Shown piece by piece: positions 32,172 through 39,068 of a stretch of 61,497 nucleotides of DNA (positions are counted from its first letter, which is position 1; the number at the start of each line of letters is the position of its first letter). The notes under the pieces were generated by a model. That model searched no databases. It saw nothing but the letters and a program-made list of their open reading frames with translations, and was not told the DNA's origin. The translations under genes and the position numbers were made by a program. The DNA is from Chitinophagaceae bacterium (GTDB taxonomy: Bacteria > Bacteroidota > Bacteroidia > Chitinophagales > UBA10324), in the NCBI GenBank assembly GCA_947469485.1, contig CANIPU010000017.1, positions 1 to 61,497 of the forward strand, read 5' to 3'.

Positions 32172-33617
32172 TTAAAACTTTCTTAAAACAGTAAACAGGG
32201 TGAGTAAAATAATTCCAATCACATTAAAAATAAATCCTGTGCGGTACATGGTTTTTAAATCAATGTATCCGCTTCCATATACAATTGTATTAGCAGCAGT
32301 TGCTACCGGTAACATGTAACCGAAAGATGCGGCAATGGTAGCAGGAACCATAAGAGTCAACGGGTCAACTCCAAGTGTTATACTCAATGGAATTAATATC
32401 GGAAGTATAAGTTGAACACTCGCCACATTACTTGCCATTTCACTCAGCAGGGTTACAAATGCAATTATTGCTAAAATGATAAGCCACGAAGGCAATGATT
32501 TAAGGCCAACTAAATTTTCTGCAAAAATTTTATCAAGCCCTGTTGATTCAAAACCTTCGGCAATTGCAAACCCGCAACCAAACAACAATATTATTTTGAA
32601 CGGAAGTTTTGTTACATCCTTCCACTCTAAAATATTTTCTTTTTTGCTTTTTGAAGCAGGAATAAGAAACAATGTAAATCCAGCAAGTATGGCAACAGTA
32701 CTGTCCTTGATATAAGAAGGCAGGCCAAATAAATTATTCCAGCCGGTCATTTTAAAATTTCCGAAATCAATATCAGCACGGGTGAACCATAAGAGCACAG
32801 TTATAAAAAAAACAGTCATCACCGATTTTTCTTCGCGACTCAGTTTACCCATTTTGTTTAATTCATCGCGGATGTGCTGCATATCAAATGGCAAATCATA
32901 TTTTTTTTCAATCACATAAAACCGCAACACACAATAGGCTAAAACAAAAAAGGTAATGCTGATAGGAAAAGCAAAAACAAACCATCGGAAAAAATTAATG
33001 GGCTCGGCACCCGGAACCATTTTTTCATAAAACCCGGCGAAAATCATATTGGGTGGTGTACCAACCATCGTAGAGAAACCACCAATGGATGCAGTGTAGG
33101 CAAGTGCGAGCATGTAGGCTGCGGCAACTTTCTTATGACCTTCGGGATGAAAAAGTTTTTCGTTACGGATAATTGCAAGCACTGCCGAAAACAACATGAT
33201 GGTGGTGGCGGTGTTTGAAATCCACATGGTAATTAAATAAGTGGTTACCATTATGCCGAGTAAAATGCGCGATGGTTTATTGCCGAGCAGCAAAATGATT
33301 TTATAAGCCATGCGGCTGTGCAGGTGCCACTTCTCCATTGCATAAGCAAGAAAAAAACCGCCTATGAATAAGAAAATGGTTTGCTCCATATACTGCGCCG
33401 CTGTTCTGTCGGCGCTCATAATTCCGAACAACGGAAAAAATATAATTGGTATAAGCGAGGTAACAGCCAGATCAATGGCTTCACTCATCCACCAGCCGGC
33501 AATCCATATCAGCAGAAAACACATTCGTGCGGCTGGAACCGGCAACCCTCTGGTTTCCATCCATTGCATGATAATGAAACCGGCCACAGGAAAAAACAGT
33601 AACTTAAACCATTTCAT
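32172..33617 (-). CDS. SLC13/DASS-type anion (dicarboxylate) : sodium symporter
   Basis: A 481-residue inner-membrane transporter with about eleven to twelve helices. Signatures of the divalent-anion:sodium family include SNTATTIMLFSAVLAI and GGFSTMVGTPPNMIFAGF in the first half, and the matching SEMASNVASVQLILPILIPL with PVATAANTIVYGSGY in the second half (the two SNT-type ion-binding motifs). The start is set at ATG 33617 (MKWFKLLFFPVAGF), since the open frame further upstream crosses the terminator of the preceding gene. The likely substrate is a C4-dicarboxylate, citrate, phosphate or sulfate; the sequence alone does not tell. Confidence 0.9.
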   Translation of the reverse strand: MKWFKLLFFPVAGFIIMQWMETRGLPVPAARMCFLLIWIAGWWMSEAIDLAVTSLIPIIFFPLFGIMSADRTAAQYMEQTIFLFIGGFFLAYAMEKWHLHSRMAYKIILLLGNKPSRILLGIMVTTYLITMWISNTATTIMLFSAVLAIIRNEKLFHPEGHKKVAAAYMLALAYTASIGGFSTMVGTPPNMIFAGFYEKMVPGAEPINFFRWFVFAFPISITFFVLAYCVLRFYVIEKKYDLPFDMQHIRDELNKMGKLSREEKSVMTVFFITVLLWFTRADIDFGNFKMTGWNNLFGLPSYIKDSTVAILAGFTLFLIPASKSKKENILEWKDVTKLPFKIILLFGCGFAIAEGFESTGLDKIFAENLVGLKSLPSWLIILAIIAFVTLLSEMASNVASVQLILPILIPLSITLGVDPLTLMVPATIAASFGYMLPVATAANTIVYGSGYIDLKTMYRTGFIFNVIGIILLTLFTVLRKF

Positions 33618-33690
33618 TGCGGGTGAAATGTAAGCCAAGTTTTTTGTGTTCGCTGTTTCGAAAAAATTGAAACAGAATAAATTCACAAAA

Positions 33691-33726
33691 AATAATAAAC
33701 CCTTCGCACTATTTGCACGAAGGGTT
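33691..33726 (-). terminator. rho-independent terminator after the 33740 gene
   Basis: On the minus strand the stem aacccttcg / cgaagggtt (plus coordinates 33718-33726 and 33698-33706, loop 11) is followed by a T-rich tail (tattattttttg). It begins 13 bp after the end of the hypothetical gene and lies upstream of the transporter's chosen start. Confidence 0.75.
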
Positions 33727-33739
33727 CTCATGCCATCGG

Positions 33740-34147
33740 TTATGGAACCGGAGGTTTTGGTTTCGGACCCGGTGAACTTGTATCCACCTTAAAGCCCCAC
33801 TCACCCAGTTTTTGTTCCTTGCCTTTAAATTTACCCAGCAGTGTATCACGCACTGCTGTAAGGCTTGAATAAACAGTACCGGGTGTGGTGGATGTTTGGT
33901 CTTCACCAATACCTAAAGCAATGTCACGGTCTTCAAATGCTTCTTCCGAATCTTTAGCCAACTGTTTTGCTTTCGCATTTTTTTGTTCAGCTTCAGTCAG
34001 ATTGGTATTGAAGGTTGCCATATCCAAACCATTAAGCGGACTGGCAACACCATCAAGCACATGCTTGGCACTCACTAACTTTGCCAACTCAATCAGCTTG
34101 TCAGGTTTCGCTTTGGGTATCTCCACACGAACATTTTTCTTAGCCAT
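33740..34147 (-). CDS. hypothetical protein, 135 residues
   Basis: Begins MAKKNVRVEIPKAKPDKL, has a helical middle rich in Glu/Lys/Ala (EAEQKNAKAKQLAKDSEEAF), and ends with a disordered Pro/Lys tail (SSPGPKPKPPVP). No signal peptide or membrane segment. I do not recognise a named family. It is a single-gene unit closed by its own terminator; its upstream region contains the 21-bp palindromic array starting about 170 bp away. Confidence 0.65.
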   Translation of the reverse strand: MAKKNVRVEIPKAKPDKLIELAKLVSAKHVLDGVASPLNGLDMATFNTNLTEAEQKNAKAKQLAKDSEEAFEDRDIALGIGEDQTSTTPGTVYSSLTAVRDTLLGKFKGKEQKLGEWGFKVDTSSPGPKPKPPVP

Positions 34148-34693
34148 ACAGGATACCTCTTTTCTGGTCCTGAGATTCGCCCTTATTGGCTGAGGAACTT
34201 TTCAATTGTTGCATACAATACAATTGGAATTTTATTGTTTAACGCAAAACCGCTGAAAGTATTGTCATTGTTGAGTCATATTGAAATAGAAAGACAAAAA
34301 CAGTTCCGGCAATGAAACAAAAACGACATCGTTTTTTTTAAAATCGAAGTCAATTTCTTCGAAAACGAAATCAGTTTCCATGAAGTTGAATTCGTTTTCG
34401 TGAACTTCGATATCGAAGTTGATGAAAACGAATTCGATGTTGGTGAAGTTGATGTCAGAGTTAACGAAATCGAATTCGAAGTTGCCGACTTTGATATCAA
34501 TCTCTGCGACCTCGGATTCGTTTTCGCCGAAAACGAATCCGATGTCGTTGAAAACGAATCCGATGTTGCCAACTTTGAATCTGATTTCTAAGAAAACGAA
34601 TTCGATTTTTTAAAAGTTAATTAAAAAGTTTCTTGAATTCCCTTTTTTATAATCAATACCAACCATGTAATTCTAAAATTAATAACCTAAAAC
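34148..34693. other. 546-bp intergenic region holding the 21-bp repeat array
   Basis: A gap between the minus-strand hypothetical gene and the minus-strand mazF-like gene. About 294 bp of it (34319-34612) is the palindromic array described separately. The rest (34148-34318 and 34613-34693) is AT-rich without recognisable genes; the promoter of the 33740-34147 gene must lie in the first part. Open frames on both strands across the array are by-products of the repeat period. Confidence 0.7.
34319..34612. repeat. array of fourteen 21-bp degenerate palindromic units
   Basis: Units begin at 34319, 34340, 34361, 34382, 34403, 34424, 34445, 34466, 34487, 34508, 34529, 34550, 34571 and 34592, in exact 21-bp register. 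A typical unit is GAAAACGAATTCGATGTT plus 3 bases (34424); units 34529, 34550 and 34592 are close copies. Most units are imperfect dyads centred on GAATTC, GATATC, GAAATC or GGATTC; unit 34403 (aacttcgatatcgaagtt) is a perfect 18-bp palindrome. Unit orientation varies: GAAAAC leads in some and GTTTTC trails in others (34382, 34508). All but one unit carry a T-C at the same place. It does not look like CRISPR (no spacers) and no good start codon leads into it. Confidence 0.85.
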
Positions 34694-35017
34694 TTAAATT
34701 GAAATATTAAATACCCCAATAAGTTTTTTGTCAATTGCTTTTATATCAGATTCTGATAAAACTCCGAGTTCGCCAAGTATTAGTTCCTTGTCAATTGTTG
34801 CAAGTTTGTTTAGCTTAATAATGGATTCAACTCTCAGACCATTGGTTTCAGTTGGCAGAATTTCCAAATCATGTGGTTCCTGCTTAATAATTTTTGAAGT
34901 TATGAAGGCAACAGTAACATCATAAATATCTGTTGCTAATATTAAGGCGGGTCTTGTTTTCATTCCTGAAAAATCGGTGAACGGAAAAGGAATCAGAATA
35001 ATTGTCCCCTTTTTCAT
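34694..35017 (-). CDS. MazF/PemK-type endoribonuclease toxin
   Basis: A 107-residue protein with the PemK/MazF fold signatures: GTIILIPFPFTDFSG at the N-terminus, MKTRPALILA with the conserved Arg, VAFITSKI, and the ESIIKLNKLATIDK strand. Toxins of this family cleave mRNA at short sequences and are blocked by the antitoxin encoded just upstream. Its start overlaps the antitoxin stop by 4 bp, so the antitoxin is made first. No chromosomal target can be inferred. Confidence 0.85.
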   Translation of the reverse strand: MKKGTIILIPFPFTDFSGMKTRPALILATDIYDVTVAFITSKIIKQEPHDLEILPTETNGLRVESIIKLNKLATIDKELILGELGVLSESDIKAIDKKLIGVFNISI

Positions 35018-35244
35018 TTGCCATATTTTACTTTCAAATCATTGACAGTATATATGTCTTTATCATCTGCCAGAAATTTGTACGACTTCGAATTCATATT
35101 TAACTGTGATACATCCTGAGTTAAAAGGCGCTGATTAATTTTTGACAACAGAAACTCAGCGAAGTCATGAATTTCTTTCAATTCATTTTCGGGCAACTGA
35201 CTCAGACTCGCCAATGTTTTTTCTATTAATTCCGTTTTACTCAT
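35014..35244 (-). CDS. antitoxin partner of the MazF-like toxin
   Basis: A 76-residue protein: an N-terminal helical part (LASLSQLPENELKEIHDFAEFLLSKI) of the DUF2281-like antitoxin type, followed by a flexible C-terminal part ending in DLKVKYGK that would wrap the toxin. The L-P-x-x-x-L-x-x-x-x-D-F-x-x-F-L pattern is the recognisable piece. It is the first gene of the pair, overlapping the toxin gene by 4 bp, and divergent from the LRR protein gene. Confidence 0.8.
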   Translation of the reverse strand: MSKTELIEKTLASLSQLPENELKEIHDFAEFLLSKINQRLLTQDVSQLNMNSKSYKFLADDKDIYTVNDLKVKYGK

Positions 35245-35264
35245 TGTAAAATATTTTTATCATT

Positions 35265-35272
35265 CAAAAGTA
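35265..35272 (-). promoter_or_regulatory. candidate -7 box for the toxin-antitoxin pair
   Basis: On the minus strand TACTTTTG matches TAnnTTTG exactly, 20 bp before the antitoxin ATG. No -33 element is clear at the standard spacing. Confidence 0.3.
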
Positions 35273-35298
35273 AGCAACCCAAAACAATTTTTCATTCT

Positions 35299-35306
35299 TA
35301 CATTTG
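35299..35306 (+). promoter_or_regulatory. candidate -7 box for the LRR protein gene
   Basis: TACATTTG matches TAnnTTTG exactly. Transcription from it would begin near 35313 and leave a leader of about 12 nt before the TTG start at 35325. The upstream TTG at 35304 falls inside this box, which argues against that codon being the start. Confidence 0.35.
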
Positions 35307-35324
35307 AGAGAAATAACAATACTA

Positions 35325-38300
35325 TTGAAGAAAGCACTTCTACTTTCATTTTTCATTTTTAGTTTTTCAATATCAAAAGCGCAGTGGGTAACTATACCTG
35401 ATGCGAATTTTGTTGCTTGGCTTCAAACAATTTATCCAACTTGCATGAATGGGATGTTGATGGATACTACTTGTAGTGGGATTGTGAATGATATTAATAT
35501 TTATTGTCAAAATCAAAATTTTTCTGATTTAACTGGAATTCAATATTTTGATAATCTCTTAGTTTTAGATTGCTCCAACAATCAAATAACAAACTTGCCA
35601 GCTCTACCTAATTCACTAATGAATCTTTATTGTAATAATAATTCATTAACGAGCTTGCCATCTCTTCCGAATTCATTAACTAGTGTTCATTGTTGGTATA
35701 ATTCATTAACGAGTTTGCCATCACTACCGAACTCTTTATATGAATTTATGTGTAGTTATAATTCACTAACGAGTTTGCCGGCTCTTCCGAATTCTTTGGC
35801 TACTCTTGATTGTAGAAATAATTCACTAACAATTTTACCATCTCTTCCGGATTCTTTAAATCAACTTAGTTGTAGTAATAATTCAATATCGAGTTTGCCA
35901 TCTCTTCCGAATTCTTTGACTAGTCTTGATTGTAGTAATAATCCATTAGGTAGCTTGCCATCGTTGCCGGATTCTTTAACTGTTCTTAATTGTTTTTATA
36001 ATTCATTAACGAGCTTGCCACCGATGCCGAATACTTTGATATTTCTTTGGTGTTATAATAATTCATTAACGAGTTTGCCATTGCTGTCTGATTCATTATT
36101 TTCTCTTTTGTGTAACAATAATTCATTAACGAGCTTGCCTTCACTGCCGAGTTCATTAACTAATTTAAGATGTTATAATAATTCCTTAACGAGTTTGCCC
36201 TCGCTGCCGAATTCTTTGACTTATCTTGATTGTTATAATAATTCATTAACAAGTTTACCCTCTCTGCCGAATTCTATGTACCGTCTTTATTGTAATAATA
36301 ATTCCTTAACGAGTTTACCCGCACTGCCTAATTCATTGACTCAATTTAATTGTAGTAATAATACATTAACAAGTTTGCCCCTGCTACCGAATTCTTTGCC
36401 TTATCTTGTATGTAATAATAATTCGTTAACAAGCTTACCTTCACTGCCGAATTCTTTGACTGATCTTATTTGTTATAATAATTCATTAACAAATTTGCCA
36501 GTCTTACCCCCATTATTACATTATTTTCAAATTCAAAATAATCCTGACATCTTATGCATGCCTCCATTGTTAAGTTTTTATGGAGGGGCCGTTAATTTTG
36601 ACATTTCAAATACGGGTATTACATGTTTACCAAATTATATTCAGCACGGAGGGTACATTGCTGCAATTGATACCATGCCTGTATGTGATGTGTTTAACAC
36701 CAATGGTTGTAATGGTGCATGGAGTATAAAAGGAACTATTGTTATAGATAGTGACAATTCTTGTGCAACAACAAATGATGGAACAGGAGTTTCAATGATA
36801 AAATTGAATCTCTTTGATTCAGGTAGTAATCTTATTCAACAAGTAATTGCAAATTGGGGTGGAGATTTTTCATTCAATACTCAACTTGGAAATTATTCTA
36901 CTTCAGTTGATACATTATATCTCCCATTCAATGTTTTATGTCCTACAAACAATAGTATAGCCAGCAATCTCACAGCAACTGATTCGATTGATTACAATGT
37001 TGATTTCAGATTAATTTGCAAACCGGGATTTGATATTGGTGTTTGGAGTACTATAGCAAATAATATTTTCTTTCCAGGAAATAGTACTTCAGTTTTCATT
37101 AATGCAGGAGATTTTTCTCAAAGTCTTTACAATGTCAGTTGCAATTCAGGAATCAGCGGAGAAGTAAAAGTTGTTATCAATGGTCCTGCAAATTACCTCT
37201 CGCCAATAGCAGGAGCACTAACTCCAACAGTAAATGGCGATACCTTGATTTATACAATTTCAGATTTTTCATTGGTAAATGCAGCAACTGATTTTGCTTT
37301 CAATGTTATCACTCATTCAAATGCACAATCAGGAAATCAGATTTGTTTTAGTGTAACAGTTACACCAACATCAGGCGACAACAATATTTCAAACAACATA
37401 CTCACCCATTGTTTTACAGTCAGCAATTCTTTTGATCCGAATGAAAAGGAAGTAAGTCCCGTTGGCAGTTTAGCTTATCCGTATAACGACTGGCTCACTT
37501 ACACCATTCATTTTCAAAACACAGGCACTGCAGCAGCACAACACATTCAGGTACTCGATACTTTGGATGCTGATTTAGATGCAAGCACTTTTCAGTTACT
37601 CTCTTATTCACACACACCAATGGTGCAGATAACCGGAAGCAATGTTGCTTTCAATTTTGTCAATATCAATTTACCTGACAGCACAACAAATTTAGCAGGT
37701 AGCATGGGTTATGTAATTTACAGAGTAATGCCAATGGCTAACCTGTTAGTGGGCACGGCAATAGAAAATACAGCAAGCATTTATTTTGATTTCAATACTC
37801 CGGTTGTCACTAACACAGTGAGCAATATAATTTGCAACCCAACCACTTCAACAACCACTTCAACCATTTGCGAAGGCGATATTTATTTTTTCGAAGGAAG
37901 CAATTTAACGATTGCAGGAAATTATTCGGTAACTCTTCAAGCTGTTGACGGCTGCGATTCAATTCTCAATCTTAATTTATTAGTTGACCCAACAATCATA
38001 AATTCGATTTCACAATCTATTTGTTCAGGAATAACTTTTGATTTCAACGGACAACAACTTTCTTCATCAGGAATTTATCACGATACATTAATTGCAATAA
38101 CCGGATGTGATTCTATCGTGAATCTTACTTTAACTATTATACCACCTGCAATATCTATTAACGAAACCATATGTTTTGGTGATTCAATCATTTTCAATGG
38201 AAATTATTATAGCACCAATAGCGTTCACATTGATACATTATTAAATAGCCTTGGTTGTGATTCTATTGTAACTCTCACACTCTCTGTTTTGCCTCTTGTT

Positions 38301-39068
38301 GCATCATCAGTCAATCAAACAATTTGCTTCGGTGATTCAGTAAATTTCAACGGAACATATTATGATTCAACAGCCATTTATGCAGATACATTATCAACTG
38401 CCGGTGGATGCGATTCAATTGCCTATCTCAATCTTACAGTACTTAATGCTGCAACTTCATCATTCAATCAAACCATTTGCATTGGCGAATCATTTTTGTT
38501 CAATGGCATAAATGAAACTGCCACCGGAATTTATTACGATACTTTAAATGCAGCTAACAACTGCGATTCGGTTATTGCCTTGCACTTAACAGTCAACAAT
38601 CCAAACGCAACCATTCAGCTAAATGGCAACACACTAACTGCAACCGGCAATGGAATTATACAATGGATTAATTGCGACAGCGGAACATTTGTTATTGGTG
38701 CAGTTGGCGAAACATTTACACCAACTGTTATTGGTCATTATGCCGCATGGGTTTGGAATGGCCTGTGTAACGACACCACTAATTGCATTGAAGTTTTATT
38801 GGATGGAATCAATGAACAATTCCCTTTAAACAATAACCAGTTTTCTTTTTATCCGAATCCTGTTGATGAAAATATAATTGTTCAGCTTTCGCAGCCTTGT
38901 GAAAACTGCAGAATGGAAATCACCAATACACTTGGAGGTTTAGTTCAAAGTGCAGAGTTCAAAGTACAAAGCATGCAACTCGATATTCATCTGCTTCCTG
39001 CCGGTGTTTATTTTATTTCCGTTCACTCTGATAAAATGAGCGCGGTAAAAAAATTCGTAAAGCAGTAA
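35325..39068 (+). CDS. secreted leucine-rich-repeat protein with type A T9SS sorting domain
   Basis: About 1247 residues. No ATG is available; TTG 35325 gives a proper signal peptide (MKKALLLSFFIFSFSISKAQ), while TTG 35304 lies inside a -7 box. Layout: N-terminal region; about sixteen leucine-rich repeats of 20 residues (consensus NSLTSLPSLPNSLTxLxCxN, about residues 86-405), the short bacterial LRR type; a carboxypeptidase-like beta region; a DUF7619/DUF11-like domain (FDPNEKEVSPVGSLAYPYND); five repeats of the form ICFGDSxxFNGxYY ... GCDSIxxL; and a C-terminal type A sorting domain (FSFYPNPVDENIIVQL ... KKFVKQ). It should be exported and surface-attached by the T9SS, with the repeats as a binding scaffold. 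Confidence 0.88.
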   Translation: MKKALLLSFFIFSFSISKAQWVTIPDANFVAWLQTIYPTCMNGMLMDTTCSGIVNDINIYCQNQNFSDLTGIQYFDNLLVLDCSNNQITNLPALPNSLMNLYCNNNSLTSLPSLPNSLTSVHCWYNSLTSLPSLPNSLYEFMCSYNSLTSLPALPNSLATLDCRNNSLTILPSLPDSLNQLSCSNNSISSLPSLPNSLTSLDCSNNPLGSLPSLPDSLTVLNCFYNSLTSLPPMPNTLIFLWCYNNSLTSLPLLSDSLFSLLCNNNSLTSLPSLPSSLTNLRCYNNSLTSLPSLPNSLTYLDCYNNSLTSLPSLPNSMYRLYCNNNSLTSLPALPNSLTQFNCSNNTLTSLPLLPNSLPYLVCNNNSLTSLPSLPNSLTDLICYNNSLTNLPVLPPLLHYFQIQNNPDILCMPPLLSFYGGAVNFDISNTGITCLPNYIQHGGYIAAIDTMPVCDVFNTNGCNGAWSIKGTIVIDSDNSCATTNDGTGVSMIKLNLFDSGSNLIQQVIANWGGDFSFNTQLGNYSTSVDTLYLPFNVLCPTNNSIASNLTATDSIDYNVDFRLICKPGFDIGVWSTIANNIFFPGNSTSVFINAGDFSQSLYNVSCNSGISGEVKVVINGPANYLSPIAGALTPTVNGDTLIYTISDFSLVNAATDFAFNVITHSNAQSGNQICFSVTVTPTSGDNNISNNILTHCFTVSNSFDPNEKEVSPVGSLAYPYNDWLTYTIHFQNTGTAAAQHIQVLDTLDADLDASTFQLLSYSHTPMVQITGSNVAFNFVNINLPDSTTNLAGSMGYVIYRVMPMANLLVGTAIENTASIYFDFNTPVVTNTVSNIICNPTTSTTTSTICEGDIYFFEGSNLTIAGNYSVTLQAVDGCDSILNLNLLVDPTIINSISQSICSGITFDFNGQQLSSSGIYHDTLIAITGCDSIVNLTLTIIPPAISINETICFGDSIIFNGNYYSTNSVHIDTLLNSLGCDSIVTLTLSVLPLVASSVNQTICFGDSVNFNGTYYDSTAIYADTLSTAGGCDSIAYLNLTVLNAATSSFNQTICIGESFLFNGINETATGIYYDTLNAANNCDSVIALHLTVNNPNATIQLNGNTLTATGNGIIQWINCDSGTFVIGAVGETFTPTVIGHYAAWVWNGLCNDTTNCIEVLLDGINEQFPLNNNQFSFYPNPVDENIIVQLSQPCENCRMEITNTLGGLVQSAEFKVQSMQLDIHLLPAGVYFISVHSDKMSAVKKFVKQ
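35581..36540 (+). repeat. tandem 60-bp repeats encoding 20-residue LRRs
   Basis: Sixteen consecutive units in strict 60-bp register, each close to attcattaacgagtttgcc followed by a conserved tcnctnccgaattc segment and a variable middle, then a Cys codon and the aataata joint. Units are most similar between 35641 and 36480; the first and last are more diverged. The period is exactly one protein repeat, so unit gain or loss would keep the frame. Confidence 0.92.

Follow-up and report, generated by a model that had tools for sequence, protein, structure and literature searches.

DNA arrays with a common 21-bp step and varied letters lie beside genes of an uncharacterised protein family in Bacteroidota

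What is an array of short palindromic units, set at exact 21-bp intervals, doing in an intergenic region of a bacterial genome? The question was raised by a stretch of 61,497 nucleotides from a Chitinophagaceae bacterium (assembly GCA_947469485.1, contig CANIPU010000017.1, positions 1 to 61,497), which we refer to as the window. In the window, the array sits between a MazF/PemK-like toxin gene (34694-35017, minus strand) and the start codon of an ORF of 135 aa. The original prediction read the array as non-coding DNA with selection on its spacing. The features concerned are as follows.

33740..34147, minus strand: 135-aa protein of an uncharacterised family, modelled as all-helical, with the array upstream of its start codon (ORF, homologs, structure model)
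34148..34318, minus strand: leader between the start codon of the 135-aa ORF and the array (length read from coordinates)
34319..34612, no strand: array of 14 units of 21 bp, dyad-rich and apparently non-coding (row alignment, autocorrelation, TRF, dyad test, coding test)

We found the layout of the array to be as predicted. Rows taken from 34319 align exactly at strict 21-bp steps through 14 units, and the sharpest copies begin at 34424, 34529, 34550 and 34592, just as first described. A 21-bp peak had been proposed as a check against shuffled controls, and by autocorrelation the self-match of 34301-34620 was 0.548 at lag 21 and 0.583 at lag 42. Mononucleotide shuffles of the same region gave 0.267 at lag 21 (sd 0.025), which places the real array at a z of about 11, and the maximum over lags 10 to 129 in 500 shuffles was 0.382. 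TRF reported periods of 21 (34413-34484) and 42 (34388-34500). The units had also been read as dyads; the column profile of the window array, taken over the called 393-bp segment, is dyad-symmetric, and 0 of 5000 column permutations reached the same symmetry. The TGA at 34313 and the lack of an ATG leading into the plus frame were both confirmed. The array is mostly open in one plus frame and two minus frames, and a 98-aa ORF absent from the original prediction runs over it from a TTG on the minus strand. On the far side of the array, a small ORF (35014-35244, minus strand) that falls narrowly under the DUF2281 cut-off precedes the toxin gene. Further on, 35304-39068 (plus strand) encodes a 1254-aa protein with leucine-rich repeats of 60-bp period and a Por secretion tail; these repeats are ordinary coding repeats unrelated to the 21-bp array.

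Within the genome of the window, BLAST relatives of the array were found at C13:10682-11143 and C13:12604-12709, with a scrap at C38:148-186. The C13 copies have an ABC ATPase gene on one side and rpoC on the other, both identified by eye, and an insertion sequence (IS) carrying a Mutator-family transposase interrupts the array there. Contig C39 begins with another, different array, again stepped at 21 bp and built on a TGAATTCA core. It lies upstream of the gene for a paralog that is 60% identical to the 135-aa protein. A search of related genomes for the unit had been proposed as a check: the letters of the window array had no BLAST match at E<=1e-4 in the 59 other genomes searched, although the 21-bp period recurs in many genomes next to the family gene. 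As a separate observation, one IS with a Mutator-family transposase was seen in or beside 21-bp arrays or scraps on C13, C38, C39 and C29, and not at C30 (copies L009:5150-6515, which is G000:C13, and L017, L018 and L015). The 21-bp arrays may be preferred targets of this IS; the C13 copy has flanks without an obvious target duplication by eye.

The 135-aa protein and the paralog beside the C39 array belong to one protein family. AlphaFold models of a single-domain member (the 135-aa protein) and a two-domain member both had a mean pLDDT of 90.7, with a pTM of 0.60 and 0.74, respectively. The single-domain model is all-helical, and the two-domain model is helical with four short strands; two-domain members may amount to dimers within a single chain. 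The protein family has no counterpart in Pfam, NCBIfam, PHROGs or PADLOC, scattered matches touching at most 3 of 51 members, and the PDB gave no match at E<=0.001. In fold searches with the single-domain and two-domain models nothing stood out, an absence that is not evidence of a new fold. We found no DNA-binding domain in the family, no toxin family in the scans, and no transposase family among the matches listed for the 51 members (25 of 32 families for Pfam; NCBIfam). In a profile search of 396 genomes from the order, 18 had the family, and in an evenly drawn sample of the phylum it was present at E<=1e-5 in 1 of 395 genomes, that of the window only. When named genomes were scanned within the limit set by a single short peptide pattern, 37 family loci emerged, mostly in Bacteroidota MAGs (including Saprospiraceae and Chitinophagaceae), with others in three named isolates and in records labelled Verrucomicrobia, Cystobacterineae or Proteobacteria. 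Two of five congeners (G004 and G005) carry the family. The searches made of viral contigs, phages and plasmids did not turn up the family, and the C39 protein had no match among 72,556 plasmid records.

To measure how often an array accompanies a family gene, we scored lags 8 to 69 in 100-bp windows up to 1.2 kb upstream or 600 bp downstream of each distinct gene, and called an array where the best lag was a multiple of 21 with a self-match of at least 0.55. With 11 duplicates removed beforehand, an array was found beside 46 of 56 family genes by this strict rule (40/55 upstream, 6/55 downstream). Of 144 control blocks lying 2 kb or more from the gene, drawn from the 35 of 56 loci whose flanks were long enough, one held an array (in L095). 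The best lag was 21, 42 or 63 in 40 of the 41 upstream regions over threshold; the exception, L087, has a best lag of 14 bp plus a visible 21-bp array. By the same rule, 10 of 14 family genes added later, mostly from genomes already in the set, have an array (the duplicates L230 and L231 being removed beforehand). In these counts L102, scored as a miss, and L245, scored as a hit, are one locus, and L067 and L056 share one array.

The strict misses among the 56 genes were L042, L047, L052, L060, L087, L090, L095, L102, L104 and L106, yet L042, L052, L060 and L087 have a visible or sub-threshold 21-bp array. Neither an array over threshold nor a clear weak one accompanies the relatives in the three named isolates, two Flaviaesturariibacter strains and Taibaiella soli (L090, L104 and L106). 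Among the 14 further genes the misses were L226, L235, L238 (0.54 at lag 42) and L241 (0.52 at lag 21). The family gene match at L226 (G065:C279) contains an internal stop, and no array over threshold lies beside it. Of three further genomes with homologs, G004 and G025 have a 21-bp array of other letters before the gene, and G019 does not. The array of G004 is visible but under the strict threshold, and that of G005 lies behind the gene and passes. Absence or randomness of the array in all close relatives had been named as a result that would speak against the prediction; these two family-carrying congeners instead have 21-bp arrays of their own.

In the long members (312-349 aa, grouped by alignment score), the array lies directly behind the stop codon in 8/8 loci, and for the eight loci with the array behind the gene, the best window begins 15-77 bp past the stop. 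In most loci outside this group the array is in front of the start codon, and in about ten of 25 loci it reaches within ~30 bp of the matched gene start.

We assembled 66 array segments, comprising 54 gene-linked segments from 47 loci and 12 labelled gene-free, with some related or split arrays included; one of the latter label, L138:19298, is in fact beside a family gene. Removal of similar arrays left a non-redundant set of 38. Adjacent units are on average ~56% identical, and 793 of 795 confidently placed blocks are in phase (952 units, 66 segments), a result that is partly built in because the array caller looks for exact lags and so selects against phase breaks. By eye, the L132 and L147 arrays each seem to hold a 1-bp shift. 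When arrays were compared by the identity of their proteins, profile similarity was 0.428 at 70% identity or more (6 pairs), 0.373 at 50-70% and 0.344-0.348 below 50%, with a permutation null of 0.340. The letters of the arrays are therefore unrelated unless the proteins are close relatives, and only the period is common. Within single genomes, comparison of arrays chosen from those seen gave mixed results: alike pairs numbered 0/28 in G136 (8 arrays), 6/21 in G221 (7 arrays), all six among four arrays, and 4/6 in the genome of the window (4 arrays).

The original prediction held that spacing itself is selected. Spacing and not letters does recur, as described above; for constraint, the most direct comparison is between the apparent orthologs L075 and L078. 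Their array of 293 bp differs by 49 substitutions and 0 indels, as against 37 substitutions plus 5 gap events in 148 bp of the upstream flank. The 109-bp leader behind the array has 13 substitutions and likewise 0 indels. The family gene of this pair differs by 15, 13 and 52 substitutions at the three codon positions (52 of ~263 third positions), showing that the protein is under purifying selection; the divergence of the array, 17%, is near the third-position rate, so its letters change about as fast as those sites. Gap lengths inside the array of a second pair, L086/L094, total 21 and 21, which fits the gain or loss of whole units; for a third pair, L074/L077, no alignment of the arrays was obtained. 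With few ortholog pairs, these comparisons suggest that phase is under constraint, and this part of the prediction stands as a suggestion from one pair.

We then examined what the arrays have in common besides their step. Dyad symmetry, which was seen first in the window, is enriched across arrays: it was significant at p<0.05 in 39 of 66 segments and in 23 of 38 non-redundant arrays, and several arrays have units inverted in blocks. A+T content has an excess second harmonic (10.5 bp), with a z of 4.6 against random-21-mer arrays over the 66 segments and of 6.1 against column permutation in the non-redundant set. Purine content has a 7-bp harmonic (z 5.2, 66 segments). The eighth A+T harmonic was also in excess over the 66 segments, at z 4.6, but reached only z 1.2 when the non-redundant set was compared with another null. 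The predicted curvature of the arrays, calculated with wedge parameters, is ~2.5x that of flanking DNA; relative to random-21-mer arrays the gain is modest, at 0.544 vs 0.478 deg/bp (z 2.7), and 5 of 66 segments lie above the 95% level of such arrays. On the gene-sense strand, C exceeds G in 37 of 47 upstream arrays (21 of 27 non-redundant) vs 21 of 49 generic upstream regions. The same bias is present in the 90 bp before the start codon in 40 of 55 cases, and together these biases hint at transcription. Tandem runs of 7 bp and 14 bp were also noticed near 21-bp arrays, at L088:3700-3900, L088:6470-6570 and L087:1010-1115; 7 divides 21.

Arrays are also found away from the gene. In 580 kb sampled from seven carrier genomes, the genome of the window excluded, we counted 14 gene-free arrays, and the family gene was not found in the stretches that hold them, so arrays probably outnumber family genes in some genomes. 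Two of the seven, G136 and G221, were first flagged by the array pattern; leaving both out, the count was 8 in 400 kb. Genomes without a listed family match, which served as negatives, had 2 arrays in 680 kb, one of them real-looking (G037). The latter, L191:18415-18615, is a 21-bp array with inverted units. The genome of the window yielded no further array in 360 kb sampled, and the gene carrier G198 none in 100 kb. These densities leave out multiple-of-21 segments under an ORF of at least 200 aa (L179:15652, L193 and L194:10638), and the stretches of G375, G234 and G144 are on contigs with a family gene elsewhere. The 11 gene-free arrays inspected have no consistent position relative to neighbouring ORFs. 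The pattern that flagged G136 and G221 was a search for GAATTC, in which eight loci were examined: a coiled-coil ORF in G252, four loci without an array, and real arrays in G136, G221 and the genome of the window. Both flagged genomes turned out to carry the protein family.

Taken together, we tentatively favor a two-part chromosomal locus, in which a helical-bundle gene is paired with an adjacent 21-bp array that acts as DNA and is likely read by the neighbouring protein; we consider this reading plausible while regarding its chance of being right as somewhat below even. Because 21 bp is two turns of B-DNA, units at this step would bring dyad sites, A+T-rich grooves and any bend of the DNA itself to the same side of the helix, independent of sequence. 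Any repeated 21-mer sums its bend and groove pattern on one face, so the letters could drift while the step is kept, and the step combined with dyads points to rows of dimers on the DNA. The array could thus carry a row of cooperatively bound protein dimers; its likeliest ligand would be the neighbouring family protein. Such a protein may regulate its own gene and may also occupy the gene-free arrays elsewhere, where it would organise DNA or mark sites. In this proposal DNA, and not RNA, would be the acting molecule. A protein this small would not ordinarily be expected to recognise DNA regardless of sequence, which counts against the proposal. Other points against it are the three relatives in named isolates without an array, the absence of further arrays in the stretches sampled from the genome of the window and from G198, the real-looking array of G037, the C-over-G bias, the modest gain in predicted curvature over random-21-mer arrays, the leader of L075/L078 that is as free of indels as the array, and a protein family in which no DNA-binding domain and no fold match were found.

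The same observations can be read in other ways. The arrays might be mutational products of an amplification of local sequence in 21-bp steps, perhaps involving the family protein, that have no function and are drifting. We regard this as doubtful, though it has several points in its favor: letters are unrelated within one genome (the 0/28 pairs of G136), L098, L099 and L103 are nearly perfect (0.96-0.98) and so probably young, orientation flips within arrays, L086/L094 changed length by whole units, and the 7-bp and 14-bp runs lie near the arrays of L087 and L088. However, phase is kept at only ~56% unit likeness (in the 793/795 blocks, partly selected by the caller), the L075/L078 array took 49 substitutions without an indel, the array holds a constant position relative to the gene in the long-member group, and the enrichment of dyads and of the 10.5-bp harmonic is not expected from a random process. 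A cassette model is less attractive still. If gene and array moved together, with the array as an integration or recombination site, the patchy spread of the family (18/396 genomes of the order, 1/395 in the phylum sample), the few neighbour genes in common, the matches in records labelled Verrucomicrobia, Cystobacterineae and Proteobacteria, and the IS copies in or beside arrays of the window's genome would all fit. Nonetheless, no neighbour family occurs in more than 5 of 56 loci (shadow ORFs of the family gene excepted; 19 of the 56 have flanks of at most 1.5 kb), the searches of viral contigs, phages and plasmids gave no match, and gene-distant arrays are mostly of unrelated sequence; we consider mobility of this kind very unlikely.

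Two further readings place the product of the array, and not its DNA, at the center. In one, the array would act in RNA, as a transcribed 5' leader or 3' tail that binds or controls the protein, somewhat like type III antitoxin RNAs. The closeness of array to gene at either end (~30 bp from the start in about ten of 25 loci; 15-77 bp past the stop in eight) and the C-over-G bias of the sense strand (37/47 vs 21/49 generic 5' regions) speak for such a role, as does folding: 34 of 66 arrays fold better than their column-permuted versions at z below -2. Yet among 47 upstream arrays only 11 have a sense strand that folds better than the antisense, which weakens the hairpin reading, and composition bias may explain this low share. 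In addition, the Rfam search of 33600-35300 gave ten weak matches, all far under the gathering score, leaving the window array without an Rfam assignment; the 11 gene-free arrays inspected have no consistent place relative to neighbouring ORFs; and RNA would have no evident reason to keep a fixed step of 21 nt. We rate an RNA role as improbable, though it is, like amplification, a live rival. The other reading is that the arrays encode heptad-repeat peptides, 21 bp being seven codons. An open frame runs through the core of 41 of 66 segments, a modest excess, since arrays built of intergenic 21-mers would give 31.3 (sd 3.6) and reversed sequence gives 27, and the window array is itself largely open in one plus and two minus frames. 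On the other side, stops interrupt all six frames in 25 of 66 segments, the C13 copy has a repeated in-frame TAA in the plus frame, and the L050 unit (the same locus as L082) has, by eye, a stop in all three gene-direction frames. We also ran the third-position comparison that had been suggested as a check, using the L075/L078 array: its substitutions fall evenly over the three positions (20/15/14) and show no codon pattern, in contrast to the 15/13/52 of the gene. We therefore reject coding as a general explanation, which we consider highly unlikely, and the predicted non-coding character is supported for arrays in general, the window array having open frames.

A broader form of the locus model favored above is that the loci make up a class of spacing-coded chromosomal elements, with a two-helical-turn code in varied letters, read by the adjacent helical-bundle family and, to judge from the stretches sampled, scattered over some Bacteroidota genomes at tens of places each. 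We advance this only as a possibility, with a little more reserve than the pairing of gene and array itself.

We compared the loci with known systems. Plasmid iterons are repeats of ~17-22 bp at two-turn spacing beside the gene of their binding protein, and their letters vary between systems. Among these systems iterons are the closest in working mode, since the arrays likewise repeat at two helical turns beside a gene. In contrast to iterons, the arrays are on chromosomal contigs (beside rpoC in C13; family genes of G304 on a 3.76-Mb contig), the plasmid collection gave no match for the C39 protein, unit identity is only ~56%, units are inverted, and arrays occur away from the gene. The neighbouring protein also lacks a known replication-initiator match: we found no Pfam, NCBIfam or PHROGs family and no PDB match at E<=0.001, a remote relation being possible. 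Type III toxin-antitoxin loci have a unit of ~34-48 nt upstream of the toxin gene and a MazF-like beta-barrel toxin. They resemble our loci in having a tandem array directly upstream of a small protein gene, but the unit here is 21 bp and the neighbouring protein is modelled as all-helical, so neither feature agrees. REP/BIME elements are palindromic repeats that share sequence, and RAYT is a transposase relative. Here too there are palindromic repeats beside a gene and dispersed in the genome; unlike REP elements, the arrays do not generally have letters in common, and no transposase family was among the listed matches.

The nearest parallels found in print were two published repeat types. 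The BrickBuilt minisatellite-MITE of Porphyromonas gingivalis is an intergenic tandem array with many copies per genome, built of a 23-bp unit of one sequence in an element with inverted-repeat ends (PMC4596501). Our arrays are similar in being intergenic, tandem and numerous per genome in Bacteroidota, and different in their 21-bp unit, their mostly unrelated letters between loci and their tie to a protein family. Sharing of units within a genome, which would be expected of a BrickBuilt-type element, was mixed, as the 0/28, 6/21 and 4/6 pairs of G136, G221 and the window's genome indicate. Borg tandem repeats are perfect, vary in unit length and form independently arising arrays scattered over one genome (PMC9879509). 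The scatter of separate arrays is common to both, whereas our units are mostly imperfect and of one fixed period. Neither BrickBuilt nor Borg repeats are known to combine one unvarying period with unrelated letters next to a single protein family. A narrow search of an open-access library gave no description of such a locus class. We conclude that the arrays and the protein family together form a type of genetic locus that apparently has not been described before.

Regulatory and architectural DNA is normally found through conserved letters. In these loci the recurring quantity is the period and not the letters, and ordinary similarity searches therefore miss the arrays. Should a protein read the phase, DNA shape would be the code of these elements and the protein their dedicated partner; should none do so, a mutational process with a fixed 21-bp step would need explaining.
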